Origin: a virus
Direction: 5' to 3' (one strand)
Length of the DNA stretch: 40,916 nt
IMG/VR virus record: IMGVR_UViG_3300031772_000088
Span: 1 to 40,916 of that record
A program made the translations under genes and the position numbers. Shown piece by piece: positions 9,223-24,777 of the stretch; position 1 is the first letter of the stretch; the number at the start of each line of letters is the position of its first letter. Under the pieces are notes generated by a model. It did no database searches. It worked only from the letters and a program-made list of their open reading frames with translations, and was not told the origin of the DNA.

Positions 9223-10110
9223 ATGGCCAAGGGCAACCGTGTCATCAAGTCTCCGAATCCTGACCAGGACCAGCTTTATGGGCCTGGGACGTTTTCGTAC
9301 AAGACGGGCACGGAGCTTCGACGTGGGCCGATTCCGATGGTCTTTCAGATCACGAGTCCGTTCGACCCGATGGTGGCTCTTCTCCCTCATGCGCTCGTTC
9401 TTCACGTCAACCCGTCGAGCTTCTCAGAGACACACACGAAGAAGATCGAGCGCATCCAGACGCGAGGGGGCTTCGTAGAGCAGCACTGGCAGGATGAGCT
9501 TTCCGAGATTTCCGCCGACGGGTCCACCGGGGCCTTCATGAACCTCTACACGGGCGTCACCTCGGTGCTCAGGCAACGGACTATCGCCTGGGATCGCTTC
9601 CGCGACCTCTACGACATCTTTCACAACAACGGGTCCGTGTACGACCCCTACGGCAACATCGTTCTCCAGGGGAACGTCATGATCCTGTTCGACCGTGGTA
9701 CCTACATCGGGTACTTTCGGACGTTCAGTTACGAGGAGACGGAGGACAGCCCTTTCACGTTCAAGGTGAGCTGGTCGTTCAAGGTACAGCAGATCCTCAT
9801 TCAGATCCCGGACAAGATCCGACTGCCTGAAATCATCCGAGAGTTCCCCGCAGACGTGCAAACCAACACCAATCCGACGAAGACCCAGGCCGCGTCGGGG
9901 TTCGAGGAGAAGCTCCGTGAAATGGGCCCTCCGCCCAACCTCACAGCCGCTCAGGTGGCGGCAGCACAGGAGAAGCTGGGCGAAGATGCCCGCATCGGCG
10001 CTTTGGTGGAGGGGATCGACAGGCAGTTCGATTCCGGGTTGGCCGGGTCGTTTGTGACCATCCTGAAGCCCGACCCTGCTGGGGCTGCCAAGCGTGCAAA
10101 GGCTAAGTAA
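9223..10110 (+). CDS. Tube-like baseplate/hub protein, paralogue of the next gene
   Basis: A 295-aa protein. Residues 57-195 form the recognisable domain: a strand with LHVNPSSFSE, then TRGGFVEQHW, SADGSTGAF, DIFHNNGSVYD and GYFRTFSYEE. This is the pattern (Asn-Pro start, Gly-Gly-x-Val-Glu-x-x-Trp, isasGxTG) found in tube-initiator or LysM-linked hub proteins of contractile systems, for example the CIS tube protein group. The same domain recurs in the next gene at about residues 466-640. Residues 231-275 are a separate helical tail that is 35/45 identical to the C-terminal tail of the next gene. The protein probably joins tube to hub at the top of the baseplate; the exact T4 counterpart is uncertain. 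Confidence 0.6.
   Translation: MAKGNRVIKSPNPDQDQLYGPGTFSYKTGTELRRGPIPMVFQITSPFDPMVALLPHALVLHVNPSSFSETHTKKIERIQTRGGFVEQHWQDELSEISADGSTGAFMNLYTGVTSVLRQRTIAWDRFRDLYDIFHNNGSVYDPYGNIVLQGNVMILFDRGTYIGYFRTFSYEETEDSPFTFKVSWSFKVQQILIQIPDKIRLPEIIREFPADVQTNTNPTKTQAASGFEEKLREMGPPPNLTAAQVAAAQEKLGEDARIGALVEGIDRQFDSGLAGSFVTILKPDPAGAAKRAKAK
9913..10047. repeat. Shared C-terminal segment, copy 1
   Basis: Codes for residues 231-275 of the tube-like protein. It aligns without gaps to 12153-12287 (offset 2240 bases). It includes a 28-base perfect match (9931-9958) and a 26-base perfect match (10022-10047). The protein segment has GPPPNLTAAQV, EDARIGA and IDRQFDSGLAG in both copies. Confidence 0.9.
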
Positions 10111-10112
10111 CC

Positions 10113-12338
10113 ATGCCCGTCCCCGTCCCCAACTTCCCAGGCGACCCTGCACCCATTCCTCCGAGCCCTCCTCGCTGGTACGAGCAGATTGAGGGGCTGG
10201 CCAAGCTATACAGCCCCGCCGTTTACGACCAGTTGACGACACAGCTCGTTAACTGGAAGACGCAGCCAGACCCACAGAACTCGGACTTCGTCCCCCTCAC
10301 GGATGTGCCCGACTGGAGCCCACGGGACGCCAAAATCTTCGTGGTCGGGATCATCCCTCCTTCCGCTGAGGTGACCGGGAGGCTCCTGGACAGGTCAGCC
10401 ACGGTTCAAGCTCAGCCAAGCAGTGCGACGGGTGTGAACACCACCATCGACCTGTCGGGACAGAAGGATCCGGTGGCCACTCCGGCACCAGCCGCTGCCA
10501 CTCCATCCTCAACGCTCCGGGTGCCCACCGGCACGTATACGGGCCAGTTCAAGGACGTCGTTGTAGGTTTTTTGCCTACCATCCCAGGGTACTCAATTAA
10601 CCTGCCCCCTGATGCGGCAACCCCCTTCACTGGGATCAAAATGAACCCAGGTGCGGCTGGGCCTGATGGGGCCCCCGGAGTAGCCCAGAATCACAGTGCC
10701 CCGGAGATGTACAATAGATTTCTGGAAGCGTACCGGAAAGCATTCCCTGGGGAGGAGCCCACGCCCACGCAACTAGCTTTTCTGATTACTCAGTCGCGTC
10801 GAGAAAACAATGGGAACTGGAAGAACAACAACCCTGGCAACATTGGGGCTGAAAAAGCAACCAGCGGCTACTTCGTTACGGGGAACGGACGTAAATGGAA
10901 GACATACCCTGACGCTCAAGCTGGTGCAGACGCCTATGTGAAGAGGGTGTTCGAGAACCCCAATACCCGAGCCGCCGCAGCCAACGGAGACGTTTCGGGG
11001 TATCTGATCGGGCTCGCCCAGACGAGATACTACGAGGAGCCTTTCAATGAGTACTACGGGGGGAAGAAAGGCGGCAGTGGATTTACCAAGGGGCCCGACA
11101 GTTTGCAAACAGTCCTCGCAGAGTTGACAAAGGCGGGGGGTCCAATCTGGCCAGATCCCAAACTACCTCTTTCAGGCCCAGATAGCTGTGCGTTCAAAGA
11201 ATCGGGCGTTCAGGCTCAAGCTCGACGGGTGAAGGGCTCTGCGGGGTCCAGATTCAACGCGACCACGTTCTACAACGCCGCTTGTCCGCTGGCGGTACCG
11301 GTGTCTGCTACAGCGGCTCCAGCACAGCCCACCAACTTCGCTGGCAAGGGGTCGGAGGCGGCTCAGACGGCACAGAAGGCTCAGGCTGCCATAGCGAATA
11401 AGGACCTGAGCCTGAACGACTCCATCTTGGGCAAGCAGCTCCTGGGGGCACAGAAGGACTACATCGACGCCCTCCAGAATGCCATCGAGGTCATGCGTAA
11501 CACCCCTCCGCTCCGGATGCTGGTGAACCCCATCTCGTTCAATCCGTCCGAAGAGAAGATCATCTCAGACGGCAATTTCAGCCGAGGAGATGGTCCGGTC
11601 GTCGAGCACTGGGGTGAGCAGCAGACCAAGATCTCGGCCTCTGGGAAGCTCGCAGCATTCTATGCCCTGGATGCTGGTGGGTCGTCTCCCGCAGGAGCAG
11701 GGTCGGCTGGAACGTCCCCTGGACTCACCCGGATGGCTCGGAACTTCTCGGAGTCGTACAAGAATTTCCTCTCCCTCTACCTGCTCTACCGCAACAACGG
11801 TACGATCTGGCTGAACACCTTCAGCAAGCAGAACCCTGGGTCGAATAACCTCGCCTTGGTGGGATCGATCTACATCTACTACGATGATGTGGTGTACTTC
11901 GGGGCGTTCGACTCGTTCACCATCACGGAAACGGACGACAAACCCTACTCCTTGGAGTACAGCTACGAGTTCACGGTGCGGGCGAAGTTCGAGCTTGATC
12001 GCATCCCCGACCCCCTGGAAGGGTACGGGAACGACGCTCTGTTCGCCGCCAAGCTGCCCGACATGTCGAACAAGTCGATCAAGACCACCCAGACGGAAGA
12101 GCCAGCCAGACCCGTGAACGCCCAAAACCCACCAGGCATTAACCACACGGGGCTCCGTGATCTGGGCCCCCCGCCCAACCTCACAGCCGCTCAGGTGGAG
12201 GAGTTTCAAAAGAAGCTGGCTGAGGATGCCCGCATCGGTGCTCAGGTGGCAGCGATCGACCGGCAGTTCGATTCCGGGTTGGCCGGGCCTAGTGGTAATG
12301 CCCTTGCGCTGGATGCCCTCAAGAAGGGCAAGAGGTAG
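10113..12338 (+). CDS. Baseplate hub protein with inserted lysozyme-like domain
   Basis: A 741-aa protein in three parts. Residues 1-190 are Pro/Ala/Thr-rich with short strand segments. Residues 196-338 look like a peptidoglycan hydrolase: a helix with QLAFLITQSRRENNGNW, then NNNPGNIGA, a GRKWKTYPDAQAGADAYVKR segment and a helical end. Glu231 beside the Asn-rich loop is the obvious candidate catalytic acid, as in goose-type or glucosaminidase-like enzymes, where a Glu precedes an NPGN or NLFG loop. Residues 466-640 repeat the tube-like domain of the preceding gene (LVNPISFNPSEE, VVEHWGEQQTKISASG, RNNGTIWL, FGAFDSFTITETDDKPYSLE). Residues 681-725 are the shared tail. The architecture recalls T4 gp5, where a lysozyme is built into the central hub to open the cell wall, but arranged differently. 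Confidence 0.7.
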   Translation: MPVPVPNFPGDPAPIPPSPPRWYEQIEGLAKLYSPAVYDQLTTQLVNWKTQPDPQNSDFVPLTDVPDWSPRDAKIFVVGIIPPSAEVTGRLLDRSATVQAQPSSATGVNTTIDLSGQKDPVATPAPAAATPSSTLRVPTGTYTGQFKDVVVGFLPTIPGYSINLPPDAATPFTGIKMNPGAAGPDGAPGVAQNHSAPEMYNRFLEAYRKAFPGEEPTPTQLAFLITQSRRENNGNWKNNNPGNIGAEKATSGYFVTGNGRKWKTYPDAQAGADAYVKRVFENPNTRAAAANGDVSGYLIGLAQTRYYEEPFNEYYGGKKGGSGFTKGPDSLQTVLAELTKAGGPIWPDPKLPLSGPDSCAFKESGVQAQARRVKGSAGSRFNATTFYNAACPLAVPVSATAAPAQPTNFAGKGSEAAQTAQKAQAAIANKDLSLNDSILGKQLLGAQKDYIDALQNAIEVMRNTPPLRMLVNPISFNPSEEKIISDGNFSRGDGPVVEHWGEQQTKISASGKLAAFYALDAGGSSPAGAGSAGTSPGLTRMARNFSESYKNFLSLYLLYRNNGTIWLNTFSKQNPGSNNLALVGSIYIYYDDVVYFGAFDSFTITETDDKPYSLEYSYEFTVRAKFELDRIPDPLEGYGNDALFAAKLPDMSNKSIKTTQTEEPARPVNAQNPPGINHTGLRDLGPPPNLTAAQVEEFQKKLAEDARIGAQVAAIDRQFDSGLAGPSGNALALDALKKGKR
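12153..12287. repeat. Shared C-terminal segment, copy 2
   Basis: Codes for residues 681-725 of the lysin-bearing hub protein and pairs with 9913-10047. The DNA-level identity in blocks, beside strongly diverged tube-like domains just upstream in each gene, suggests gene conversion or constraint on this segment. Confidence 0.9.
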
Positions 12339-12340
12339 CC

Positions 12341-15300
12341 ATGCCGCGAGGACCGTACCAAGGAACGTTTCAGCCGAACCTCAAGCCCACAGTGGTCACG
12401 GGGCCGGATGCGGTCGTCTACATCAACGGCGAGTCCGACATCATTGGCTGCCCAAGCTGCTCCAAAAAGTTTGACTTCAACGCCTACATCACAAGCGTCA
12501 CGGTGGACCTCAACGTGGACAGCCCTCCTGGGACGGCTTCCATCAACCTGTCGATCCCTCGGCACGCCGTAGACGACTTCTATTTCGAGAACCAGGCTCT
12601 CATCACCCCGATGATGGAGATCGAGATCTTCGCCAAGGGGTACTTCTTGATCGAGGGTGTGCCCCAGTACTACCCCATCTTCTGGGGGCTAGTCACCGAG
12701 GTCGGCAACTCGTACTCCGGTGGAGAACACTCCGTCACCATTCAGTGCTCGGACATCCTGAAGTGGTGGGAGTTGTGCAAGATGAACATCAACCCTGCCT
12801 TCACAGGGGCGGCGGGGCAGGCGGGCCGCAGCATCTTTGGTAACGTCTTCTTCGGCATGAACCCGTTCGACGTGATCTGGACGTGTGCTCAGCAGTCCTT
12901 CGGGGACATCGTTGTCGGCTCCGGCTCGCTGACCTCCCTCAACAAGGAGTCGGGCGAGGGGAAGCAGGTCTTTCAGGAAGCTCTCCAGGACATCATGCTG
13001 TACTGGGAGAAGCGGTTCTCCCGTACTCGCTCGAACCTGCTGATGTACGGCACCAACGGCATCGCCGTTCGAGGGGATACCCTCTCCGAGGCGTATGTCC
13101 CTGTGGACTCGAAGAAGTTCAAGGTACATCCGTACGCTTCAGCAACGGTACGAAAGGCCAACGGGGGCAAGGAGGCCGGGCAGATGGTGTTCGATCCCAC
13201 CGACCCCTCCGTTGTCGCATTCCGCACGCAGTTCTCTCAGGCCGGACAGGTCAACTTCTTCACCAGTGAGTTCCAGACCAAGCTGGAGCTGGCGAACGCT
13301 GCCAAGGAGGTCATCGGCTACGAGTTCTTCATGGACGTGACGGGCGACCTCGTGTTCAAGCCGCCCTTCTACAACCTCGACATCCTCTCGAACAAGCCGG
13401 TTTCGTGGATTCAGGACATCGACGTGATCGACTGGGACTACTCAGAGTCCGAGGCGGAGGTGGTCACGCAGCTTACGATGCAGGGGGACTTTGGAGGGGC
13501 CACCTCCTATGGCTTCCCCGAGGACTGCACCCCGTTCACCTCGGTGACGGACTATCATCTACTCCGGAAGTACGGGTGGCGCTCCCAGTCGGTCAACTCC
13601 GAGTTCATGGCCAGTCCGTTGCTGATGTTCTACCACGGGATGGACATCCTCGACCGCATCAATGCGAAGCGGCATCGCATGAGCGTGACCATCCCGATGC
13701 GGTCTGAGCTACGTCTGGGGTTCCCCATCTACGTCGCTCCGCTCGATCAGGTCTGGTACATCATAGGCATCTCGCACAACATCGCGTTTGGCGGACGTGC
13801 CACTACGGCTCTGACCCTGACGGCACGACGTGCAAAGTTCTTCGCCCCGAAGGGAATCGGGATACTTTTCAAGACGGACTACAAGGGACCCACCACGTCA
13901 CAGGGTGCAGACCCCAAACCCGACCCCAATACCAAAGATGCAAAGGGCTCGCAGAAGGTGGTGGCAGCACCCTCAGCCAAACTGCCGTTCAAGTACACCT
14001 CCAAGCAGCTATCTCAGTATGGGTTCTTCCGGCTCAACATCGGGGATGCAGCTCCAATGCCTCCGACCATCTCCAAGATTCTGAAGGCGGGCCAGGATAA
14101 CCCCTTCGCACCGCTCATCCTGCGACACCCCAAGACGGGCAGGGCAGTTGGGTATCCGAACGTCGTCATGGTGTACACACGGCCGTTCGACCCCCCTCCC
14201 GATGACCTCGCCAGGAACGCTGGACAGAAGACCAAGGGGAACCCCAATCTGAAAAAGCAGGGGCAGGCTCAGTTGAAGGCCACCCTGAAGCAGTTGGAAG
14301 ACGGGCTTCGGACAATGAACACCCGTACGGCAGCGGATGACGCCCGTGACTCGCTCCTGAACAACCGGTACCAGTACGGGCTCAACTCTGCTGGAGTCAT
14401 GATTTATGCGTGTGACTTCGAGGGGCTCTTTGGGGAAGTGGCCTTCCTCAAGAGTGCCAACATCGAGACCGTCGGAGCCGACCAGACCCCGATCACGAAC
14501 ATCTTTCCCAAGGGCAACAAGACCTCCATGCTTCGTCCCGTGTCGGACGAACGAGGCTTCGAGGTGATCGGGCACTTCCGGTACGGTCGGGGGCTGGCTC
14601 TTCGAGATGGGATGCTCGTCTACAACCCTAACGAGAAGAACAAAAAGGCGTCCGTGGGCATCCAGGTCGCCCTCTCCGGTGACCTCTTCGCGACGCTGGC
14701 CTCGCAGTCTCAGGGTCTTTCCAGCCTGTCCACGACCTACCCCAACCCGATTGCGGCTATCACGGAGATGCGGCCGGATGACCTGCCTGTCGGAGGGGTA
14801 ATCAACCCGGGGACCAACAAACCTCAGTTCGTCCCCGTCAACCCGGATGCGGTGGTGCCTGGGACGAACTTCGTGGATACCGCCCCGTTGGGGTCTGCTG
14901 AGCAAAAAGGCAGTATCGCCTCCCTGGAAGCAGGGCAACTCAGTCGTGCCGTCACCATCGCGGAGCTGAATGTACTGAAAGACCCTGGATCGCAGGACAC
15001 CTCCTGCTCTTGTCTATCAGGCCGATCCGACCTCGCGTTCATGAACGTGGGGTATCAGATCAAGCCCCTCACCGTGAACACGATGGGCGGGGTGGCTCCG
15101 GCTGCCGGTACGCTACCTGGGCCGACCGGCGGTGCTGCACCTCCGCCCACTACCACGGTGGGTGGGGATATCACCATTACCAACGCGATCCAGGGCACGA
15201 CGAGCCCCTACGTCTCGGAGCCCGTGACGGATCAGCAGTACCGGTCAGCTCTTGGTGGGGCGAATGTCCTTTCCAAGATCGACCAGTTCCTGTACTCGTT

Positions 15301-15805
15301 GTACTCGGCTCTGGACAAGCCCCATCAGGAGTACGAGGCGGCTCTTCGCGGGGAGCTTCTGGACCTCACCTTCCCCAAGGACGAGGAAGTCAAATTCGGG
15401 CAGATATCGGCGGCGCCTTCTCCGTTGTCGCCGCCCTACAATCCTGCCAATCGCCTGACAGTGGGGGACCCTGCCGGATTTGCCGCTCAGGCTAACTCGG
15501 CCAAGTCGGACCTGAAGAAGCAGTGGAACAGCTTTGGAGACAAGCTCGCGAAGAACACTCAATTGGCCAAGTTGACCGGGGAGCGAGACTTGGCTGCGAA
15601 AGAACTGAACCAAACCAACGCTCAAATCGCCGCCCTCACCAAGCAGCTTGCCCTCATCGACAGTGGTGACGCTAAGGTGGTGAGCCTCAGCAGCACCTCT
15701 ATCCAGGATCAGATCAAGTCGTTGAAGGCGGAGGCGGCCAAGTTGACGAAGCAGGTCAAGGACGACGACCTCCAGATCTCACAACTCAACGCGAAACCAG
15801 GGTAG
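12341..15805 (+). CDS. Baseplate hub protein, gp27/gpD-like
   Basis: An 1154-aa protein in the position of the trimeric hub that joins tube and spike. Residues 20-520 fit a late-control-D/gp27-type hub: a strand-rich domain with an added CPSC (Cys37, Cys40), a GLVTEVGNSYSGGEHSVTIQ strand pair, a helical insert with DILKWWELCKMNINP, a second barrel with GDLVFKPPFYNLD, and the closing IYVAPLDQVWYIIGISHNIA and TTALTLTARR strands. Residues 520-560 are a linker. A further domain of unknown type follows (about 560-800, with RYGRGLALRDGMLVY), then a Gly/Pro/Thr-rich region. A C-terminal coiled coil from about residue 1050 has repeated Leu/Ala/Lys heptads (DQIKSLKAEAAKLTKQVKDD). It is roughly three times the size of T4 gp27, so the C-terminal half is an expansion. 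Confidence 0.65.
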   Translation: MPRGPYQGTFQPNLKPTVVTGPDAVVYINGESDIIGCPSCSKKFDFNAYITSVTVDLNVDSPPGTASINLSIPRHAVDDFYFENQALITPMMEIEIFAKGYFLIEGVPQYYPIFWGLVTEVGNSYSGGEHSVTIQCSDILKWWELCKMNINPAFTGAAGQAGRSIFGNVFFGMNPFDVIWTCAQQSFGDIVVGSGSLTSLNKESGEGKQVFQEALQDIMLYWEKRFSRTRSNLLMYGTNGIAVRGDTLSEAYVPVDSKKFKVHPYASATVRKANGGKEAGQMVFDPTDPSVVAFRTQFSQAGQVNFFTSEFQTKLELANAAKEVIGYEFFMDVTGDLVFKPPFYNLDILSNKPVSWIQDIDVIDWDYSESEAEVVTQLTMQGDFGGATSYGFPEDCTPFTSVTDYHLLRKYGWRSQSVNSEFMASPLLMFYHGMDILDRINAKRHRMSVTIPMRSELRLGFPIYVAPLDQVWYIIGISHNIAFGGRATTALTLTARRAKFFAPKGIGILFKTDYKGPTTSQGADPKPDPNTKDAKGSQKVVAAPSAKLPFKYTSKQLSQYGFFRLNIGDAAPMPPTISKILKAGQDNPFAPLILRHPKTGRAVGYPNVVMVYTRPFDPPPDDLARNAGQKTKGNPNLKKQGQAQLKATLKQLEDGLRTMNTRTAADDARDSLLNNRYQYGLNSAGVMIYACDFEGLFGEVAFLKSANIETVGADQTPITNIFPKGNKTSMLRPVSDERGFEVIGHFRYGRGLALRDGMLVYNPNEKNKKASVGIQVALSGDLFATLASQSQGLSSLSTTYPNPIAAITEMRPDDLPVGGVINPGTNKPQFVPVNPDAVVPGTNFVDTAPLGSAEQKGSIASLEAGQLSRAVTIAELNVLKDPGSQDTSCSCLSGRSDLAFMNVGYQIKPLTVNTMGGVAPAAGTLPGPTGGAAPPPTTTVGGDITITNAIQGTTSPYVSEPVTDQQYRSALGGANVLSKIDQFLYSLYSALDKPHQEYEAALRGELLDLTFPKDEEVKFGQISAAPSPLSPPYNPANRLTVGDPAGFAAQANSAKSDLKKQWNSFGDKLAKNTQLAKLTGERDLAAKELNQTNAQIAALTKQLALIDSGDAKVVSLSSTSIQDQIKSLKAEAAKLTKQVKDDDLQISQLNAKPG

Positions 15806-15808
15806 CGA

Positions 15809-18016
15809 ATGACCATCCGAGCTGGAGACTTCCGGAAGAAGCACCCCGAAGGCCACAACATCGGCCGGGACTTCGCTGATGGCGGATTCCCTCAGGGTCT
15901 CCACGTCGGCATCCTGGTACGGATCGACGAGTTCGCCATGAAGGGGGACGTGAAGGTTCTGACCCGAGGTGGGCAGATTGTCCCCGAAGTGGACCTGACC
16001 GTCGCGATGTGTGGCCCACGTTCCTTCTGGGGTGGGGTTCCGGAAATCAACTCGATAGTCGTCTTGGCCTACCGCCAGCGGAAGCGGAAGGTCTTCGAGC
16101 CCATGGTGCTGACCTACATCCCTGTAGGGAACAAAGGGGGGATGCGCTTCGACCCGTGGTCACCCACGGACCCGAAGGATGTCCCCACGGACCCGGCGGC
16201 TCGGGAGACCTACGACAAGTTCATCGGGCGTACGATCCGGCAGAAGAAGATGAAGCTGAAGCCAGGCAACGTCGGAGGGATGTCCTCCGATGGGGCGGAG
16301 TTCCTGCTCGCCAAGGATGTTCGGATGACGAACAGAGCGGGTGACCTCATCGAACTTCGGGACGCAGAGCGTACCCTGGTCACCCAGGCCATCCACCGGT
16401 TCGACTCAACGGCGGGCTGCGTGTACTACTCTGGCCCCGTTCGCCGTGGGGAAATGTACCTCCCCTCTGACATCTTCAGCAAGGGCCGAACCCTCAAGAC
16501 TGAAAAGGACCGCTATTTTGGGGCCGACGAACTGAAGGCTCTTGGACCGGGCGACCCTGGGTCCCCGACCAAGTTCGCCAACTCGGATGGGGTCGTGCTC
16601 GACTTTTTCAACGACTTCGCGACCTACCCCCCCACGACGTACTCGAACGGAAAGAAGGTCTTCTACCCCTCGACCGTTTTCGGGACGAGCATCGAAGACG
16701 GAGAGAACGGGGCGGGGTTCCCGTTCACAGAAGACAGAATGGAGATGATCCACGACACGGATCTCATCCAGGATGTCCTACATGAGATCGACGGGTTTTC
16801 CCTCGTGTCTCCTGGGAGCATCGCACGGCGACGTGTTTACATCGAGCGTGTCTATGGGACGGTCATCGGGAATGATGCCCACTCGTCGCAAGGAATGCGT
16901 GTCTACGGCAAGGTCGTCCGACCCGAGCTGTGGTCTGCCTTTCGTGCAGATGGTGAGGGGACGTTCGCTATGGGGGAGGTGGAGCGAGCCGCCAAAGGGG
17001 ACACGGAGACCCTCACCGCTGCGGCGGCCTTCCTCTTCCGCATCTGGTGCCCGTATGGGGCTTCGGACGACAACGCCTTCTCGGTGGCTATCGAGAAACA
17101 GGGGAAAGTCTACCTGCACGTCCCCAAGCCCACGTCCGAGCGGTACCTGGACGACTCCGGGGTCTCGATGGAAGCAAACCTTCTCGGGGCCCTCAAGCTT
17201 TACATCGGGGCCTCGAACAACAACAACACGAGCATTCAAGCCAGCTTGGCTGGTGGGATCGTCGCCGACATCGGTCGAAACAAGGACACGGGCAACTGCC
17301 TCGATTTGACGTTCCACGGCAGCGTCAATTCCACGTACAGCGGTATTGACGGTGAGGTCGGGTACGCGAAGTTCGATAATATCCAGGCCAGCTACGGGAT
17401 AGCGACGGGCGGGGATATGATCGAATCCATTGGAGGGGCCAAGATCACGACGGTCAACGGCGGCCTGACCCAACAGGCAGACCGAATGAGCATCCAGGTT
17501 TTTCAGGGGCTCGGGATGAACCTCGGCCAGCTTGACGTGCTGGTGGCGCAGAAGAGCCAGTACAACTACGCCCTCGGCGTCCTGGAGACCGTCGTTGCTA
17601 TCGGGAAGGTCACCACCGTCCTGCTGGGAGGCCAGATCACGACCATCGCGGCTGGAGGGGAGCTTACGAACATCGGAGCCGGTGGTTCCGTCACGAACGT
17701 CGGAGCCGGGGGCTACGTGGTGAACGTAGCCGGAGGTGTCGTCTCCTTGGCTGCTGCCGCTGGAGCGGTGACCCTGACGGCGGGGCTGGCCATGAGTATG
17801 ACGGCCGGGCTCACGATGAGCCTCACGGCTGGACTGGGGATCGTCATCTCGGCCCCTGGGTTCGTCTCCATCACCTCCCCCCTCATCACCCTTGGCGGGC
17901 CCTCTGCGGTTCTCGGGGTCTGCCGTGGAATCCCTAGCCTCCCGCCCGGAACGCCCACCCTGGATCTGATCACGGGCACCCCACTTTTCGGGGCGCTCCT
18001 CGTGCTCTCGAACTGA
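15809..18016 (+). CDS. Baseplate central spike protein (OB-fold plus beta-helix)
   Basis: A 735-aa protein. Residues 25-110 look like an OB-fold of the gp5/gpV/VgrG type (GLHVGILVRIDEF, then VKVLTRGGQIVPEVDLTVAM, GVPEINSIVVLAYRQ). The middle third has spike-associated features (SDGAEFLLAKDVRM, GDLIELRDAERTLVTQAIHR), comparable to spike beta-prism starts, and a large inserted region. From about residue 600 the chain becomes a repetitive run of Gly, Ala, Val, Thr and Ile with short alternating strands (TTIAAGGELTNIGAGGSVTN, then VTLTAGLAMSMTAGLTMSLT), typical of a trimeric beta-helix needle. It ends in GLGIVISAPGFVSITSPLIT and a short tail with Pro residues. It would form the membrane-puncturing tip under the hub. 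Its stop overlaps the next start. Confidence 0.8.
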   Translation: MTIRAGDFRKKHPEGHNIGRDFADGGFPQGLHVGILVRIDEFAMKGDVKVLTRGGQIVPEVDLTVAMCGPRSFWGGVPEINSIVVLAYRQRKRKVFEPMVLTYIPVGNKGGMRFDPWSPTDPKDVPTDPAARETYDKFIGRTIRQKKMKLKPGNVGGMSSDGAEFLLAKDVRMTNRAGDLIELRDAERTLVTQAIHRFDSTAGCVYYSGPVRRGEMYLPSDIFSKGRTLKTEKDRYFGADELKALGPGDPGSPTKFANSDGVVLDFFNDFATYPPTTYSNGKKVFYPSTVFGTSIEDGENGAGFPFTEDRMEMIHDTDLIQDVLHEIDGFSLVSPGSIARRRVYIERVYGTVIGNDAHSSQGMRVYGKVVRPELWSAFRADGEGTFAMGEVERAAKGDTETLTAAAAFLFRIWCPYGASDDNAFSVAIEKQGKVYLHVPKPTSERYLDDSGVSMEANLLGALKLYIGASNNNNTSIQASLAGGIVADIGRNKDTGNCLDLTFHGSVNSTYSGIDGEVGYAKFDNIQASYGIATGGDMIESIGGAKITTVNGGLTQQADRMSIQVFQGLGMNLGQLDVLVAQKSQYNYALGVLETVVAIGKVTTVLLGGQITTIAAGGELTNIGAGGSVTNVGAGGYVVNVAGGVVSLAAAAGAVTLTAGLAMSMTAGLTMSLTAGLGIVISAPGFVSITSPLITLGGPSAVLGVCRGIPSLPPGTPTLDLITGTPLFGALLVLSN

Positions 18017-18585
18017 TGCCTCTCGCTCCACCGGCCATCGCCCTGACGTTGGGGACGAACCTGCTCGCCACGGGGCATCTCGGGCTGGCCATGCCGAAGT
18101 TTGCTGGGGCTACGGCTCTTGGTGTCTCGCTCTGGGCCACCAAGGCCACGGTTTCCGTGACAGGGGCTGGGGCTGCTGGTACGGGGATCGCCACGCTCCC
18201 GCTGCTCGTCCCACAGCCGCTGCTCCTGGTGAACCTCCAGACGAGCTTCCTCACGTTCGGGGTCACGGGCTTCTTCAGTCCCCTGACCGCTCTCGGACTG
18301 GCGAATGGTCTATCGTTGTCCTTGGTGCAGGGCATTATTTTTGCGACTGTCGTGGGTGTCGGCAGCGGAGCCGGTGTAGCAAAGGTCGTCTCACCTCCAG
18401 CGTATCTGGCCTTCCAGGAGGCGTACGCGAGTTTCGGGATGGTCGGACCAGGAGCGATCAAGATGGCTCTTGCTCTTGGGGCGACCTTCGACAAGACCTT
18501 CGCTGCTTTTTCGATACCCATTCCAATCGTAGGCCCGGCTGGACCGGCCCCCGGTGTCGGAACAGGCACTGGCAAAATCATATGA
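18016..18585 (+). CDS. Hydrophobic three-repeat protein, possible spike cap
   Basis: A 189-aa protein with almost no charge until late in the chain, rich in Gly, Ala, Leu and Val. It is made of three diverged repeats: about 15-77, 78-136 and 137-189. Each begins with a Phe/Leu-x-x-x-Gly-x-x-Gly helix (ATGHLGLAMPKFAGATALG; TFGVTGFFSPLTALGLANG; SFGMVGPGAIKMALALG) and ends with a Gly-rich turn and hairpin (VTGAGAAGTGIATLP; VVGVGSGAGVAKVV; APGVGTGTGKII). A single chain with three-fold internal symmetry next to a trimeric spike recalls PAAR proteins, which cap spike trimers, though no PAAR motif or metal ligands are present. It could also be a membrane-active or spike-adaptor protein. It is coupled to the spike gene by TGATG. 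Confidence 0.6.
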   Translation: MPLAPPAIALTLGTNLLATGHLGLAMPKFAGATALGVSLWATKATVSVTGAGAAGTGIATLPLLVPQPLLLVNLQTSFLTFGVTGFFSPLTALGLANGLSLSLVQGIIFATVVGVGSGAGVAKVVSPPAYLAFQEAYASFGMVGPGAIKMALALGATFDKTFAAFSIPIPIVGPAGPAPGVGTGTGKII

Positions 18586-18597
18586 GAGAGGTCACCT

Positions 18598-21500
18598 GTG
18601 GGTCTGTCGATTAAGGGCTACGTCCTCGAACCACCCCGTGTAGGGCAATCGAACTCCCCGTTCACGTTCACGCCGAACGATGAGGTCGCCAATTCTGGGA
18701 CATTCAACGCCTACTACACGCCCGGCTCGGAGACCGTTTCGAGGTCGGACTACTGCACGGTCGTCCAGACTGAGGGGCTGCTTGTCAACGCCGCCTTTGG
18801 GTGGACCAAGAACGAGGGCGGGACGTTCACCACGTCCACCGTCCGGCGGTTCGACTACGACTCCCTGGCGGGGCACTTCAAGCCCCTCCCAGGGGCTCCA
18901 CCGGACGCTGTGGGTGTCCTGGACACCACGGCGAACACGACACGGCTGAAGGTCGTTCCTCCCATCGGAGTGCTCGTGGCGGCCCCTTTCAGGCTCTCGG
19001 TGGGTACTGGATCGGGCACGACCCTCCTGACGAGCTTGGTCCTCACGTTCGGGGCTCCGGTTGTCGGGACCGTGGAGATCCTTTCGACCACCGGGGAGCT
19101 GAACTGGAACCCCGCAGACATCACGACGTACCTGGGGCAGACGGTACACTTCCAGCGGCAGTCCTACTTCGCCTTCTCCGATTCCACGGGTCTCCTGGGG
19201 CTCGCTCAAGCCCCCTTTCTGCTCCTCAACCCCATTCCTGGCACCGGGCAGTACCCTCGGGTTCGCTTCGGGTTCGGGTTCTACCTGACGCCCATCCAGG
19301 TCGCCACCGAGGGCGGGTTCTCCCCCAACCCCGTGGCAGGGACGGTCGAGTGGGCTCTCTCGACCGGACGGCTGAAGTTCAACTCCGGGGACGTGATCGC
19401 CAACACGGGGAAGCCCGTCTACTACGATGGCGTTTTGTTCTCCTGGAAGCAGATCCTTCCCACGCAGTTTGGGGGTCTGGTTACCGCTCCGTTGCCGCTT
19501 GTTCCGATCCCGCCTCCAGGTGGGGACATCATCTTCAGGCTCGTATCGGGCTACCAGTTCCCCGCTGTTCGACGGGTTACGGTCTTCGACGCGGGTACGG
19601 CTGGAGAGGTGCAGGTCAGGACGGACGGGGCGGTCGGGTTCTCGACCACGGACCAGGCTACGTACGGTGCCGCTTCGGTCTCGGTCTACATCGGCGACCT
19701 GCCCATCGAACGTGGGGTCTCGATGCGGTTTTTCCGCAGCCCCGTCAACCTCAACGGACTCGACCCGACGGTCAAGGACGTGTCCGCGATCTACTCGACG
19801 ACGGGCGCCATCTGGGCGAACCCGATCATCGAGGTGCCGTACGTCTTGCTGCCGACGACTCCGCTTCAAGACCCCGGCTACCCCCTCGTGGTCAAGGTGG
19901 AGCAGGGCACGGGCTCCTTCACGGGAACGCTTCCCGACCTTGGTGGGGTCGCGCCTCCGGTGGGTCTTGGGTACATCCTCGACTACGAAGCCCGGCAGCT
20001 CTACTACGCTCGAAGGCAGGTCAACCAGATCCAGACCTTCGGGCAACCTGGCGGGACGCTTCAGCTTCAGAACATCCCGGTTCGACCCGAGAACCTGCTC
20101 TTGGAGGTCGAGTCCTCTCCTGGAACGGGCATCTTCACGCCCTTGGTGCAAGGGCAGTCGATGCTGTTCGACAAGAACCCAGGCATCATCACCCTGACCT
20201 CTCAGACCGGCACCCTGGTCATCCAGAGCACGGCGGCGTCTTTCGTCGGCACGTTGCTGACCGACCCCTCGGTCGATTTCTTGGTAGCTGGCGTTCAACC
20301 GGGCCACCAGCTTGTCGTTCCGGCTGGCCCGGCAGCGGGCGTCTTCACCATCGTCGCTCGAACGGCGACCACGCTGACGACGGACCTTCCCGCCCCCGGA
20401 GTGGGAAGTGACTTCGCGTACGAGGTCCGGACAGCCCCCGAAGTCATCGCGGATCGGTACTTCCAGGAGATCGTTCCCGTCGATCCCAACACGAAGGTCG
20501 AGCGGATCCGGGCCCTCGGGGCCAGCCAGAACTCTACCACCGTCTACGTGGGCGGTGCTCCTGGGCAGTTCCTGTCCGCGACCACCCTCGTGGATACCCT
20601 GGCAGACTTCGTGACGGCTGGCGTCCAGGCGGGGGACACGGTGCTCCTCACCTCGGGCCCGGATACCGGCAGCTACCGGACGGTCACGATCGTGGACACC
20701 ACCACGCTCACCGTGGATCGGGACTTCACGTCTTTCCCGAGCGCCAACTACCAGATCGAGCGTCGTCGTCGCATCCCGAAGGTGATGATCCCTCGCAGCC
20801 GAGTCAGGCTGGGGCTGACCACGTTCGCCATATTGGTGCAGAAGCCAGACAACCCTTCCTTCACGGCTCCGGCCCTTCTCCCTGCGGGAACCGTCGAGGT
20901 CAGCCTCCAGACGGGAGACCTCAACTTCTCGCAGGCGGACGTGCTGCTGGGAGTTCCTGCCTTCTGGGGGCTTACCCTTCGGCTTCAACTGGACTACCGG
21001 ATCAGCAAAGACCTGGGGTTCATCGAGCTGATCGAGCGGCTGCTCACGAACGACGAGATGTACGTGACGTACAAGCCGGTGACCTCCGACGGCGTGTTGC
21101 CGCCCGTGACGGAGCACATCGGGTTCCTGATCCGGAAAGAGCTGACGCAGCCTTGGCCTCGTCCGACGCAGACCAATCAGGTGCCGTTCAACCCAGCCGG
21201 GCGAACCGTCGCGGCGAATCCGGCTCCGGCCGTTTTCCGTGGGGGCCGACCTCAGGACGACACCCAGATCGGCATCAACCTAGCCACCTCCACCGTCACG
21301 TTCCTTCCGAACGTGGGCTTCATGACGGATGCGTTGCCTTCAGGCTCTGCGGTCGAAGTCGATGAGCGGATCCTGGTGGACTACTACGTCTTCGAAGCGG
21401 TCGGCGGGGAGAAGTCGTTCACGGTTCTTCAGCCACCGATCTTTGCCGCTCAGGTGATCCTGCACCTGGCATCGCCTGCTTTTATCCTGCTTGGAGACCA

Positions 21501-24500
21501 AACAGCGGTCTTTCCGGCGAACTACTTGCTGCGGGTCGAGCAGCAACAGGTGTACCTGATTGGCTCGTCGGTCTACGACCCCCTGGCGGACACGACGCTC
21601 ATCACGTTGGCCTACGGGGCCACCTTCCAAGACGACTTCACGAACCCGAAGTTGTACCTCAGTTCGGGGCCGATCCCGCTGAACCCGGTCTTCCCGACAC
21701 CGTCCTACTTCTCGACGGAGATCGCGTCCTTCGGAGCTGTGCCCCGAGGGATGAACGTCTTCACTCTCCCTGGGGACGCGACCCTTCAGTATCCGAAGGG
21801 CACGGTGGTGCTCTTCACCAACTCCGCCACCTACTACGACCTGTATGTGGTCTCGGGGGCGACCTTCAAGGATGGGGTCACGTCGATCATCCTTCAGCAG
21901 AATGTCCGCCAGCAGTACATGACGGGCACCACGGTTCTGAAGCGTTCCATCCGGCCCATCTTGGAGGATGGGGTGACGCAAGCTCAGCTTCGTTCGATCC
22001 CGATTCTGGAACAAGGGGTCATCCTGTTCCGCCGTGTGACGGGACAGCCCGGGGTCATCATGGTCACCCCCGACGAGTACACGCTCGATGGGGGCGGGGC
22101 CTTGACCTACACGCCCCCGCTTCAGCCGAACGAGTCCATCGACATCTTCTACACGAGCTACCGGATCGCCCAGGCGGGCACTCGGATCCGAGCCTCCTAC
22201 ACCTCGCTGACGGTTCCTTCGGACTCGAACGGACTGCTGGGGCAGATCCTCAAGGCGGACTACTCAATCTTCGCTGGGGACTCGTTCTACTACCGGGTCG
22301 AGACACTGACGAACTTCTCGGCCGAAGTTCTGGAGACTCTCCAGGCCAGTGCCCAGAGCAGCTCTCCTTCGAGCGGCCCGACGACCTCGAACGCTTCGAC
22401 TCCTACGCTCTTTCAGCAAGGTCGGGAGTCCCTCTTCTTCACTGAGGGGCACACGGCGAACGTGGACTACGTCAGCCGTCAGTACCTCAAGTTCTTCAAC
22501 GACAACACGCACCGACTCGAAGACGTTCTTCAAGACGAGGATGGCCGCTACATCGGGGACACGAACGGGCGGTTCCGTTTCGACGGTAAGATCGGCAACC
22601 CCGTCCGAACGGTCTACTCAGCGGTCACGAACGAGATCGACGACACGTTCAAGATCTCTGACTTTCCGGTCGTTATCACCTCCATCTTCCCGCTCGTGTT
22701 CACGTACGTTGGGACGTACGTTCAGCTCTACCAGCCCTCGAACTACGGACGGCTCTTCCCGACGGCCAAGGAGCACCTGTCCCTGGTGACCACGGCGGGA
22801 ACCCCTCTCGCCAACACGGGGGATGTGATCGGCGACTTCGGGGCGAAGCCGATGACCTCGTTGCCGGGCACCATCTACCGGCGGTTGCCCCGAGCCCTCG
22901 TTCAGCAACCCGCTGCGGCGGGCTCCACGACGCTCTTCGTAGATAATGCGAGCGGCAGCCCGACGTTCCTTCGGCCTCCTTTCGCGGTGGGCATGAAGGT
23001 GGCCATCTCGAACCGGGACGGCACGGTCATCGTCCCGGATGCGGTGCCGTTGACGGTCACAGCGGTACTCACGGCCCCAGAGCGGATTCAGATGGCCGGT
23101 TTGCCGTTCGTTCCCGCAGGGGCGACGGTCTTCCTCTCGACCAAGGACACGGTCTACCAGAAGCTCTACCGGCAGGGCTTCGACATGGCGGTCAACACGG
23201 ACGCGGGGCAGCTCGTGTTCATCAAGCCCTACCCGCCTCTGGACGGCTCAGTTCCAATCATCCCGGCAGAACTGCGTATCAACCCGCCAGGCCCTGGGGA
23301 AGTCTTGCAGATGGACTACGTGGGGGTCTCGAATCTGGCCACGGCTGCCTTCAAGTTCCCGGCTCTCGTGGGCGAGATCGGGTCGGACTGCAATGACCAG
23401 GGCATCCCCATCCTCAGCCCGATCCAGGCACAGGAAATCCTGGCCAACCAAGCGGAGACGGCAGTGGACGCGGCAGTGAACGGGAGCACGACCTCTCCGA
23501 CCACGCTCTCCGGGATGACCTTGGACGGAACGGGCACGGTCCTGACCTACACGGGGCCTTTCCCGATTCCGCTCCCGCAGGTCTACGACCTCGTGCAGTT
23601 CACGACGGGGCCGAATGCCGGTACGGGGTATCGCCGCATCAGCGTTGTGGGCCCCACCTCGGTCACGGTGGACTCCGCCTTCCCGTCCCCTGGCGTGGGT
23701 GGTGATGCGGTCATCACGGCCACGAACAACGTGGGGCCTGTGTCGGCGGCGACCTTCCCCCTAGCGAATGTCCTCGACGACCCGGCTCTCAGCCCGCTCA
23801 TCAAGGTCGGCTTTACGGTCATCCTGACCACGGGGGCGAATGCGGGCGTTCGGCGGCAGGTCACGGCGATCCTGAGCCCGACTCAGCTTCAACTCAACTC
23901 CGGGGTTCCGTTCTTGGTGCCAACAAGCTATCGGGTATCTGACCACCTCAACACCTTCTCGAACACGCTCCCCATTTACCCTTCCGTGTTCACGCAACAG
24001 AGCGTTCTGCTCACGAACGACCATGATGTGATGCCTGCGGTCGCGGACTCGGTGGTGCTGGCCATCACCCGCTTCTTCGAGGGAGATGCTTTCCCTCCAG
24101 GGACAGACGGGGTGCTCTCTGACCTTCTGACCCCAGCCTCGAACCCGGGTACGGTCGCGGCGGCTATCCTGACGGATGCAGGGCAGGACTTCGTGACGGC
24201 CGGAGTCAACGCGACCCACTTCGTCTACATCGAGGTCGGTGGGAATGCTCAGTTCTACGCCATCCAGTCGGTTGATAGCCCGACGCAGATCACGGTCACG
24301 ACGCCTTTCCCCGTCGCTGGGATCGTCTCGTACCGGGTGGTCAAGGCATTCGGAGTCGGAGCCCAGGCAATCCAGGATCTCTTCACCATCCGAGCCGATG
24401 CTCAAGCTTGGGTGCAAGGATGTAATGCGTGGACGGCGTTGCTTGCGACCTCCACGTCCGTCTACGTGCCCCCGGGCATCGTGGACCCCCTCATCTACGC

Positions 24501-24777
24501 GAACCCGTGGACTGCTCTGACCTTCTTTCAGCGGTTGGCGGCGTTGGCCGTCCGACTGGCGGCCATCACGGGGCCGACCGGTCCCATCCCTCTCGTGACG
24601 GCCATCGTGAAAACGAGAGACAAGCTCTACGACAAGAGGTATGCCTGGATCGACGCACGGACCAACGTACAGACGGGCAGCCTGTACGTCATCCAACGAG
24701 CGGTCGCTGACCGAGCTACGGCGACCGCGAAGCTCTACAACGACCTCCTGAAGATTCTCTCTGTCCAGACGGTGTGA
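18598..24777 (+). CDS. Giant multidomain beta-rich tail/baseplate protein
   Basis: A 2059-aa protein from GTG 18598, preceded by AGAGAGG. No single family is recognised. It is strand-rich with few charges and contains two families of internal repeats. The first is GTVExxxxTGxLxF followed by an Asp-x turn, at residues about 154, 245, 333 and 763 (for example GTVEILSTTGELNWNPADIT and GTVEVSLQTGDLNFSQADV). The second is the FVTAGV domain, five copies at 547-611, 661-721, 1636-1709, 1722-1782 and 1855-1918. The last 120 residues are helical (FFQRLAALAVRLAAI, then RAVADRATATAKLYNDLL) and could bind the baseplate or trimerise. Its place between spike and wedge genes suggests a peripheral baseplate or short-fibre role. 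Its length and modularity are typical of large-genome phages. Confidence 0.55.
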   Translation: MGLSIKGYVLEPPRVGQSNSPFTFTPNDEVANSGTFNAYYTPGSETVSRSDYCTVVQTEGLLVNAAFGWTKNEGGTFTTSTVRRFDYDSLAGHFKPLPGAPPDAVGVLDTTANTTRLKVVPPIGVLVAAPFRLSVGTGSGTTLLTSLVLTFGAPVVGTVEILSTTGELNWNPADITTYLGQTVHFQRQSYFAFSDSTGLLGLAQAPFLLLNPIPGTGQYPRVRFGFGFYLTPIQVATEGGFSPNPVAGTVEWALSTGRLKFNSGDVIANTGKPVYYDGVLFSWKQILPTQFGGLVTAPLPLVPIPPPGGDIIFRLVSGYQFPAVRRVTVFDAGTAGEVQVRTDGAVGFSTTDQATYGAASVSVYIGDLPIERGVSMRFFRSPVNLNGLDPTVKDVSAIYSTTGAIWANPIIEVPYVLLPTTPLQDPGYPLVVKVEQGTGSFTGTLPDLGGVAPPVGLGYILDYEARQLYYARRQVNQIQTFGQPGGTLQLQNIPVRPENLLLEVESSPGTGIFTPLVQGQSMLFDKNPGIITLTSQTGTLVIQSTAASFVGTLLTDPSVDFLVAGVQPGHQLVVPAGPAAGVFTIVARTATTLTTDLPAPGVGSDFAYEVRTAPEVIADRYFQEIVPVDPNTKVERIRALGASQNSTTVYVGGAPGQFLSATTLVDTLADFVTAGVQAGDTVLLTSGPDTGSYRTVTIVDTTTLTVDRDFTSFPSANYQIERRRRIPKVMIPRSRVRLGLTTFAILVQKPDNPSFTAPALLPAGTVEVSLQTGDLNFSQADVLLGVPAFWGLTLRLQLDYRISKDLGFIELIERLLTNDEMYVTYKPVTSDGVLPPVTEHIGFLIRKELTQPWPRPTQTNQVPFNPAGRTVAANPAPAVFRGGRPQDDTQIGINLATSTVTFLPNVGFMTDALPSGSAVEVDERILVDYYVFEAVGGEKSFTVLQPPIFAAQVILHLASPAFILLGDQTAVFPANYLLRVEQQQVYLIGSSVYDPLADTTLITLAYGATFQDDFTNPKLYLSSGPIPLNPVFPTPSYFSTEIASFGAVPRGMNVFTLPGDATLQYPKGTVVLFTNSATYYDLYVVSGATFKDGVTSIILQQNVRQQYMTGTTVLKRSIRPILEDGVTQAQLRSIPILEQGVILFRRVTGQPGVIMVTPDEYTLDGGGALTYTPPLQPNESIDIFYTSYRIAQAGTRIRASYTSLTVPSDSNGLLGQILKADYSIFAGDSFYYRVETLTNFSAEVLETLQASAQSSSPSSGPTTSNASTPTLFQQGRESLFFTEGHTANVDYVSRQYLKFFNDNTHRLEDVLQDEDGRYIGDTNGRFRFDGKIGNPVRTVYSAVTNEIDDTFKISDFPVVITSIFPLVFTYVGTYVQLYQPSNYGRLFPTAKEHLSLVTTAGTPLANTGDVIGDFGAKPMTSLPGTIYRRLPRALVQQPAAAGSTTLFVDNASGSPTFLRPPFAVGMKVAISNRDGTVIVPDAVPLTVTAVLTAPERIQMAGLPFVPAGATVFLSTKDTVYQKLYRQGFDMAVNTDAGQLVFIKPYPPLDGSVPIIPAELRINPPGPGEVLQMDYVGVSNLATAAFKFPALVGEIGSDCNDQGIPILSPIQAQEILANQAETAVDAAVNGSTTSPTTLSGMTLDGTGTVLTYTGPFPIPLPQVYDLVQFTTGPNAGTGYRRISVVGPTSVTVDSAFPSPGVGGDAVITATNNVGPVSAATFPLANVLDDPALSPLIKVGFTVILTTGANAGVRRQVTAILSPTQLQLNSGVPFLVPTSYRVSDHLNTFSNTLPIYPSVFTQQSVLLTNDHDVMPAVADSVVLAITRFFEGDAFPPGTDGVLSDLLTPASNPGTVAAAILTDAGQDFVTAGVNATHFVYIEVGGNAQFYAIQSVDSPTQITVTTPFPVAGIVSYRVVKAFGVGAQAIQDLFTIRADAQAWVQGCNAWTALLATSTSVYVPPGIVDPLIYANPWTALTFFQRLAALAVRLAAITGPTGPIPLVTAIVKTRDKLYDKRYAWIDARTNVQTGSLYVIQRAVADRATATAKLYNDLLKILSVQTV
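20236..20430. repeat. FVTAGV domain copy 1
   Basis: Residues 547-611 of the 2059-aa protein, with FLVAGVQPGHQLVV, a Gly-Pro-Ala-Ala-Gly turn, TATTLTTDLP and a closing Tyr-Glu-Val strand. Most similar in layout to the next copy. Confidence 0.7.
20578..20760. repeat. FVTAGV domain copy 2
   Basis: Residues 661-721 of the 2059-aa protein, with the clearest form of the motif: DFVTAGVQAGDTVLLTSG, then GSYRTVTIVDTTTLTVDRDF. Confidence 0.8.
23503..23724. repeat. FVTAGV domain copy 3
   Basis: Residues 1636-1709 of the 2059-aa protein. The opening motif has diverged to VYDLVQFTTGPNAGTGYRRI, but the Gly-x-Asn-Ala-Gly turn and the SVTVDSAFPSPG ending are kept. Confidence 0.6.
23761..23943. repeat. FVTAGV domain copy 4
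   Basis: Residues 1722-1782 of the 2059-aa protein, with LIKVGFTVILTTGANAGVRR and LSPTQLQLNSGVPF. It directly follows copy 3, forming a tandem pair. Confidence 0.65.
24160..24351. repeat. FVTAGV domain copy 5
   Basis: Residues 1855-1918 of the 2059-aa protein, with DFVTAGVNATHFVYIEVGG, then IQSVDSPTQITVTTPFP. The usual Gly-Asp after the motif is replaced by Ala-Thr-His. Confidence 0.75.

Follow-up and report, generated by a model that had tools for sequence, protein, structure and literature searches.

When a contractile tail meets the host membrane, the spike tip makes the first contact, and to our knowledge the known separate tips nearly all belong to PAAR or PAAR-like families. The window analyzed here (the whole stretch of DNA, a 40.9-kb IMG/VR virus record with a tail operon) encodes a small hydrophobic protein directly after a spike gene. 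A preliminary description had suggested a different type of spike cap or a membrane-piercing tip, built of three diverged repeats, and we refer to the protein as the candidate cap.

The locus and its spike gene

The features of the locus are as follows.

12341..15805, plus strand: hub protein, gp27/gpD-like position, query for homologous loci
15809..18016, plus strand: putative trimeric central spike, 735 aa, gp5/gpV-like (PHROG_694 and PDB fold matches)
17876..18013, plus strand: spike residues 690-735, the conserved C-terminus and proposed docking site (conservation, no HxH)
18014..18018, plus strand: TGATG, spike stop overlapping the candidate cap start, one base shared
18016..18585, plus strand, stop codon included: candidate cap, 189 aa, three diverged repeats (open reading frame, repeat statistics, model)
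18598..24777, plus strand: very large protein, 2059 aa, downstream neighbor in nearly all loci (listed for its position, with no part in the cap claimed)

Reading of the sequence bore out the gene as first described, namely an open reading frame of 189 aa at 18016-18585 that is coupled to the spike gene by TGATG, the spike TGA (18014-18016) sharing one base with the ATG (18016-18018) that follows.

The spike of the window has OB-like strands at residues 32-104 and a Gly-rich repeat region toward its C-terminus. PHROG_694 (baseplate hub and tail lysozyme) matched 40 of 51 spike members (best value 4.9e-10), and the best PDB fold match of the spike model was P2 gpV (E 0.0084, probability 0.99), followed by the R2 pyocin spike. 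T4 gp5 beta-helix headed the PDB profile list, weakly, and the beta-helix part of the monomer model was of low confidence. By sequence and model, the upstream neighbor is a gp5/gpV-type central spike with an OB-fold and a beta-helix similar to those of known spikes. Its last 46 residues had a mean conservation of 3.28 bits (2.73 in the remainder), and residues 71-105 near the N-terminus were at least as conserved. Self-capped spikes such as P2 gpV and the R2 pyocin spike carry an HxH metal apex; no HxH motif occurred in the last 150 residues of any of the 51 spikes.

Baseplate_J was present in all 13 records tested that carry the candidate cap family, and a gp25/wedge-like pair similar to that of phage G was also found. 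Because the tail sheath model PF04984 was detected in none of the 13 records (it was weak even in phage G), the assignment to a contractile tail type draws on Baseplate_J and the gp25/wedge-like pair. Upstream of the hub, the window encodes adjacent proteins (9223-10110 and 10113-12338) whose C-terminal tails resemble each other (PPNLTAAQV...DARIGA.V..IDRQFDSGLAG); the second also has an additional internal stretch, possibly a cell-wall hydrolase. LR745208, introduced below, has a similar pair (L008 5978-7979). The 2059-aa protein contains recurring 'DTL.DF..AGV..GD' units, and no family was found for its first 801 residues.

Homologues and linkage to the spike gene

A direct search gave one close relative and a search with the spike a second. 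Collection by alignment of the upstream hub protein (hub-first) yielded 80 IMG/VR loci on contigs of up to 529 kb. Complete homologues of the candidate cap occurred in 65 of these loci, the window included, and represented 54 distinct proteins of 187-193 aa with pairwise identities of 27-90% (mean 43%). The remaining hub-first loci end inside the spike or just past it, and all contigs that reach further carry the gene. In total, the family comprises 79 IMG/VR contigs and the 485-kb phage LR745208, and whole-record searches of 32 long records (64-529 kb) found a single copy in every one.

The spike gene was located just upstream in 78 of the 79 contigs, sometimes with an insert, often an HNH endonuclease, between the two. 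This was the case in all 65 hub-first loci; as a check that the linkage was no artefact of locus collection, searches starting from the candidate cap recovered 41 loci, of which 40 have a homologue of the spike directly upstream, and added 14 new contigs, 13 with the spike. Linkage to a central spike gene and one copy per phage both agree with what would be expected of a spike-tip cap. Of the 65 loci, 27 had a distance from spike stop to cap start of -1 base (the genes overlap by one base), and in 50 it did not exceed 15 bases.

Longer gaps occurred in 14 loci, most of which hold an insert with the motif SMTLDRI.P.LGYVPGNIAVISHLANT.KQNCTDP, which we read as a putative HNH homing endonuclease. 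Free-standing HNH-type open reading frames of several lengths were located exactly between spike and candidate cap in L019, L020, L022 (an HNH-type remnant), L030, L061, L075/L076 and L084, and another HNH gene overlaps the cap start in LR745208 (LR745208.1:227302-227994). The junction looks like a repeated insertion site. A 1193-base insert in L042 encodes a 255-aa protein resembling a Dam-type DNA adenine methylase and not an HNH endonuclease. The long gap in L069 (same contig as L114) arises because the spike gene is split into two overlapping frames just upstream of the cap (13894-16049), by a frameshift, a split gene or a sequencing error.

Two members depart from this arrangement. The distant homologue L136:5001-5588 lies on a 78-kb contig in which a spike was recognized nowhere; amidase-like and other proteins are found upstream of it and a very large protein downstream. 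The distant homologue in LR745208 (226727-227305, minus strand, 192 aa, E 4.5e-6) is about 240 kb from the spike, which is at about 471 kb, and the hub, at 318 kb, is likewise distant from the spike. The very large gene follows the candidate cap in 64 of 65 loci, with inserts of 0.2-1.8 kb between them in many.

No relative was seen in T4, KVP40, P-SSM2, S-PM2, syn9 or phage G. Searches by tblastn recovered only the copy of LR745208 itself from INPHARED phages (four members as queries) and no homologue from PLSDB (one member), and a scan of genome_contigs found none. A weak match in Tunturi_5 was antisense to annotated genes, contained an internal stop, and was dismissed.

Internal repeats and predicted fold

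The repeats, all on the plus strand, are given below with their AlphaFold2 segments.

18016..18213, plus strand: repeat 1, residues 1-66; helix 5-18, GxxG turn, helix 26-43, Gly-rich hairpin (strand segment 45-62); invariant glycines G23, G36, G52, G55, G57
18214..18396, plus strand: repeat 2, residues 67-127; helix 67-80, G82xxG85, helix 88-103, hairpin 107-125 (strands 107-113 and 117-125); invariant glycines G85, G98, G118
18397..18582, plus strand: repeat 3, residues 128-189; helix 130-139, G141xxG144, helix 145-164, hairpin 166-188 (strands 166-172 and 175-188); invariant glycines G173, G186

For the window sequence alone, the off-diagonal self-similarity score was 80 against 40 +/- 8 in shuffles, none of 200 reaching 80. 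Pair by pair, repeats 1 and 2 matched clearly, 2 and 3 marginally, and 1 and 3 not significantly. With profiles from the 54 homologues, all three pairs were significant in hhalign (P 2.2e-9 for repeats 1 and 2, 1.6e-6 for 2 and 3, 3.3e-5 for 1 and 3), and the observed score was reached in 0 of 200 column shuffles for every pair. The clearest internal triplication was in L136, in which repeats 1 and 2 are about half identical and the single sequence gave repeat-pair scores of 125, 79 and 69 (shuffles about 28; p<=0.0005 each). Invariant glycines fell at matching sites across repeats, in the turn between helices (G23, G85, G144) and in the GxG of the second strand (G55/G57, G116/G118, G182/G184/G186). 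The three diverged repeats are therefore upheld by self-alignment. The preliminary description had named two outcomes as speaking against its reading, the lack of a significant three-fold repeat and homologues lying mainly away from spike genes; since the repeat is significant and the homologues found by profile searches follow spike genes, with L136 and LR745208 as exceptions, neither occurred.

The AlphaFold2 model (54-sequence alignment; pLDDT 91.2, pTM 0.82) runs H-H-E, H-H-EE, H-H-EE, that is, as three helix-helix-beta-hairpin copies. Of the repeat unit as first described, the Gly-rich hairpin stood, while the single Gly-x-x-Gly helix gave way in the model to two helices joined by a GxxG turn. 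Repeat statistics and modeled secondary structure together indicate that the protein is pseudo-three-fold. The predicted helices are 10-20 residues long and mildly hydrophobic (mean Kyte-Doolittle 0.2-1.2), and the most hydrophobic stretch is a beta hairpin. The strong hydrophobicity noted for the window protein held across the family (mean GRAVY 0.91, 4.5% D/E/K/R), and 52 of 54 members had a 19-residue window scoring 1.6 or more.

PHROG_5576 (65 aa, the length of one repeat) matched repeat 1 of L136 weakly (E 0.0057). Since its model also matched 7 of 14 control genomes, we treat a homotrimeric version with one repeat per chain as a lead only.

Relation to PAAR and other known families

The candidate cap is outside known families by Pfam, PHROG, PDB sequence and PDB fold comparison. 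No Pfam family matched the window protein or the 54 family members, PHROGs gave weak matches, none worth the name, and PDB profile searches found no family; scattered matches in these three with E above 0.006 were dismissed as chance. A Foldseek search of the model against the PDB returned nothing at E<=0.001 (best E 0.18; query-length TM no higher than 0.22), and among predicted viral structures (BFVD) there was one fold match, A0A8S5RUZ0 (E 1.9e-3, TM 0.37).

As initially stated, the protein has neither PAAR motifs nor PAAR metal ligands. PF05488 (PAAR) matched neither the window protein nor any of the 54 members, and no PAAR structure was among the 50 best listed PDB fold matches of the model. 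In PAAR, Zn is held near the vertex by three His and one Cys (PMC8651086). Such a His3-Cys site was not found across the 54 members: His is conserved in a single column (48 of 54, with Val in the window protein), and 29 of 54 have no Cys.

PF05488 exceeded its cut-off in T4, KVP40 and phage G, whereas the 31 family-bearing records examined and LR745208 gave no such match. It was not detected in some phages without the candidate cap either (S-PM2, P-SSM2, Tunturi_5). A Fisher test of PAAR against cap occurrence on this small, non-random panel (p ~0.004) is descriptive only, because the records are related to one another. PF13665 (Tox-PAAR-like) had no match in family-bearing records. A survey of 224 jumbo phages found stand-alone PAAR in most Myoviridae jumbo phages (PMC7824862).

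Proposed role and alternative explanations

We propose that the gene probably encodes a pseudo-three-fold tip of the spike trimer, analogous and unrelated to PAAR, in uncultured huge phages with contractile-type baseplates. Indirect evidence gives the idea of a different type of spike cap good support, through the repeat, the single copy, the position behind the spike, the missing PAAR, the apex-less spike, and the non-PAAR sequence and fold. One chain with three alpha-alpha-beta-hairpin units would form a pseudo-three-fold fold, and because of that fold a single copy could cover the blunt C-terminus of the spike homotrimer, at a presumed ratio of one cap to three spikes. The hairpins may continue the beta-structure of the spike and dock on its conserved C-terminus, and the greasy surface might help the tip to enter the host membrane at tail firing. 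PAAR's geometric answer, known from T4 and type VI secretion, would then have been reached with an unrelated fold. On this reading the cap, whose gene is linked to that of the spike, would bind the spike. Against a cap stand L136, which has the clearest three-fold repeat and no recognizable spike, and the unlinked homologue of LR745208, a phage whose hub and spike are far apart as well. The constancy of the very large gene downstream, the undetected PF04984 and the lack of PAAR in some phages that have no candidate cap also count against it.

The alternatives differ mainly in what the hydrophobic, triplicated protein would act on. It could be a membrane-inserting, pore- or fusion-like protein that is injected with the tube, perhaps riding the spike, and whose three GxxxG-like helical hairpins open an inner-membrane DNA channel. 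The hydrophobic composition and windows given above would suit this, and a T6SS effector has been reported to need glycine zippers for its translocation (PMC10240207). However, the model shows short helices of no more than mild hydrophobicity, its most hydrophobic stretch is a hairpin, and it is one compact, high-confidence fold; because of these helices we keep membrane insertion as a rather unlikely rival despite the composition. We also considered an ordinary integral membrane protein or holin and rejected it on the position of the gene, the compact alpha/beta model and the short helices. We consider it distinctly unlikely that the protein is a dedicated assembly chaperone, like DUF2169 for PIPY tips, that covers the hydrophobic end of the spike and is not part of the finished virion. 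A chaperone, too, could be tightly coupled to the spike, present in one copy and hydrophobic on its surface, and DUF2169 strictly co-occurs with VgrG-PIPY genes (PMC11883445); yet a three-fold repeat that fits a three-fold spike is required of a cap and not of a chaperone, and no PAAR or Tox-PAAR-like client was detectable in family-bearing records.

The partner could instead be the very large protein encoded downstream, which has 2059 aa in the window, because its gene is almost as constant a neighbor as the spike, and in L136 the homologue precedes a large protein with a similar start on a contig that has no recognized spike. That the protein caps or adapts this product is nevertheless very improbable in our view: the start-stop overlap and the shortest distances are to the spike, the inserts described above part it from the large gene in many loci, and a trimeric spike is the obvious partner for a three-fold form. 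Improbable in the extreme is a PAAR-superfamily protein that has diverged, by common descent, beyond recognition. It would share the gene neighborhood and the pseudo-three-fold single chain, and PAAR types range from 85 to 168 aa, many without typical motifs (PMC8651086), but the family has no Pfam match, no PAAR structure among its listed fold matches, no His3-Cys site, and a helix-helix-hairpin unit.

Returning to the spike-tip cap, a further-reaching version, which we offer tentatively and hold to be doubtful, is that PAAR is replaced, across a broad range of huge phages, by a hydrophobic, triplicated helix-helix-hairpin tip that enters or stays in the host membrane, unlike PAAR, a rigid metal-stabilized cone. 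Breaching would then be partly chemical as well as mechanical. Internal triplication that brings an unrelated fold to the three-on-one geometry would clearly be convergence, and it would put a name to the tip protein that is missing in a large set of huge phages. If the hydrophobic surface is functional, membrane crossing by tips would become testable with a small protein.

Comparison with known systems

Like PAAR proteins (T4 gp5.4, T6SS PAAR), the candidate cap is a small single chain with an internal three-fold build and a proposed spike-cap role, and its gene, as is often the case for PAAR, is beside that of a gp5/VgrG-type spike. It differs from them in having no PF05488 match or motifs, no Zn site and no fold match, in being twice the length of the smallest PAAR, in its three helix-helix-hairpin units, and in its strong hydrophobicity. 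Tox-PAAR-like (PF13665) and PIPY (DUF4150) proteins are alternative VgrG tips without PAAR motifs (PMC11883445). PIPY is said to resemble PAAR in structure, whereas the predicted fold here is not, and the records that carry the family leave PF13665 unmatched. By fold search the spike is of the same class as the self-capped spikes P2 gpV and R2 pyocin, but HxH is absent in 51 of 51 spikes and a separate protein follows instead. In T4 gp5, conservation drops toward the C-terminus except in the last strand, which binds the cap gp5.4 (PMC4576200), and the spike here parallels T4 gp5 in its conserved C-terminal end.
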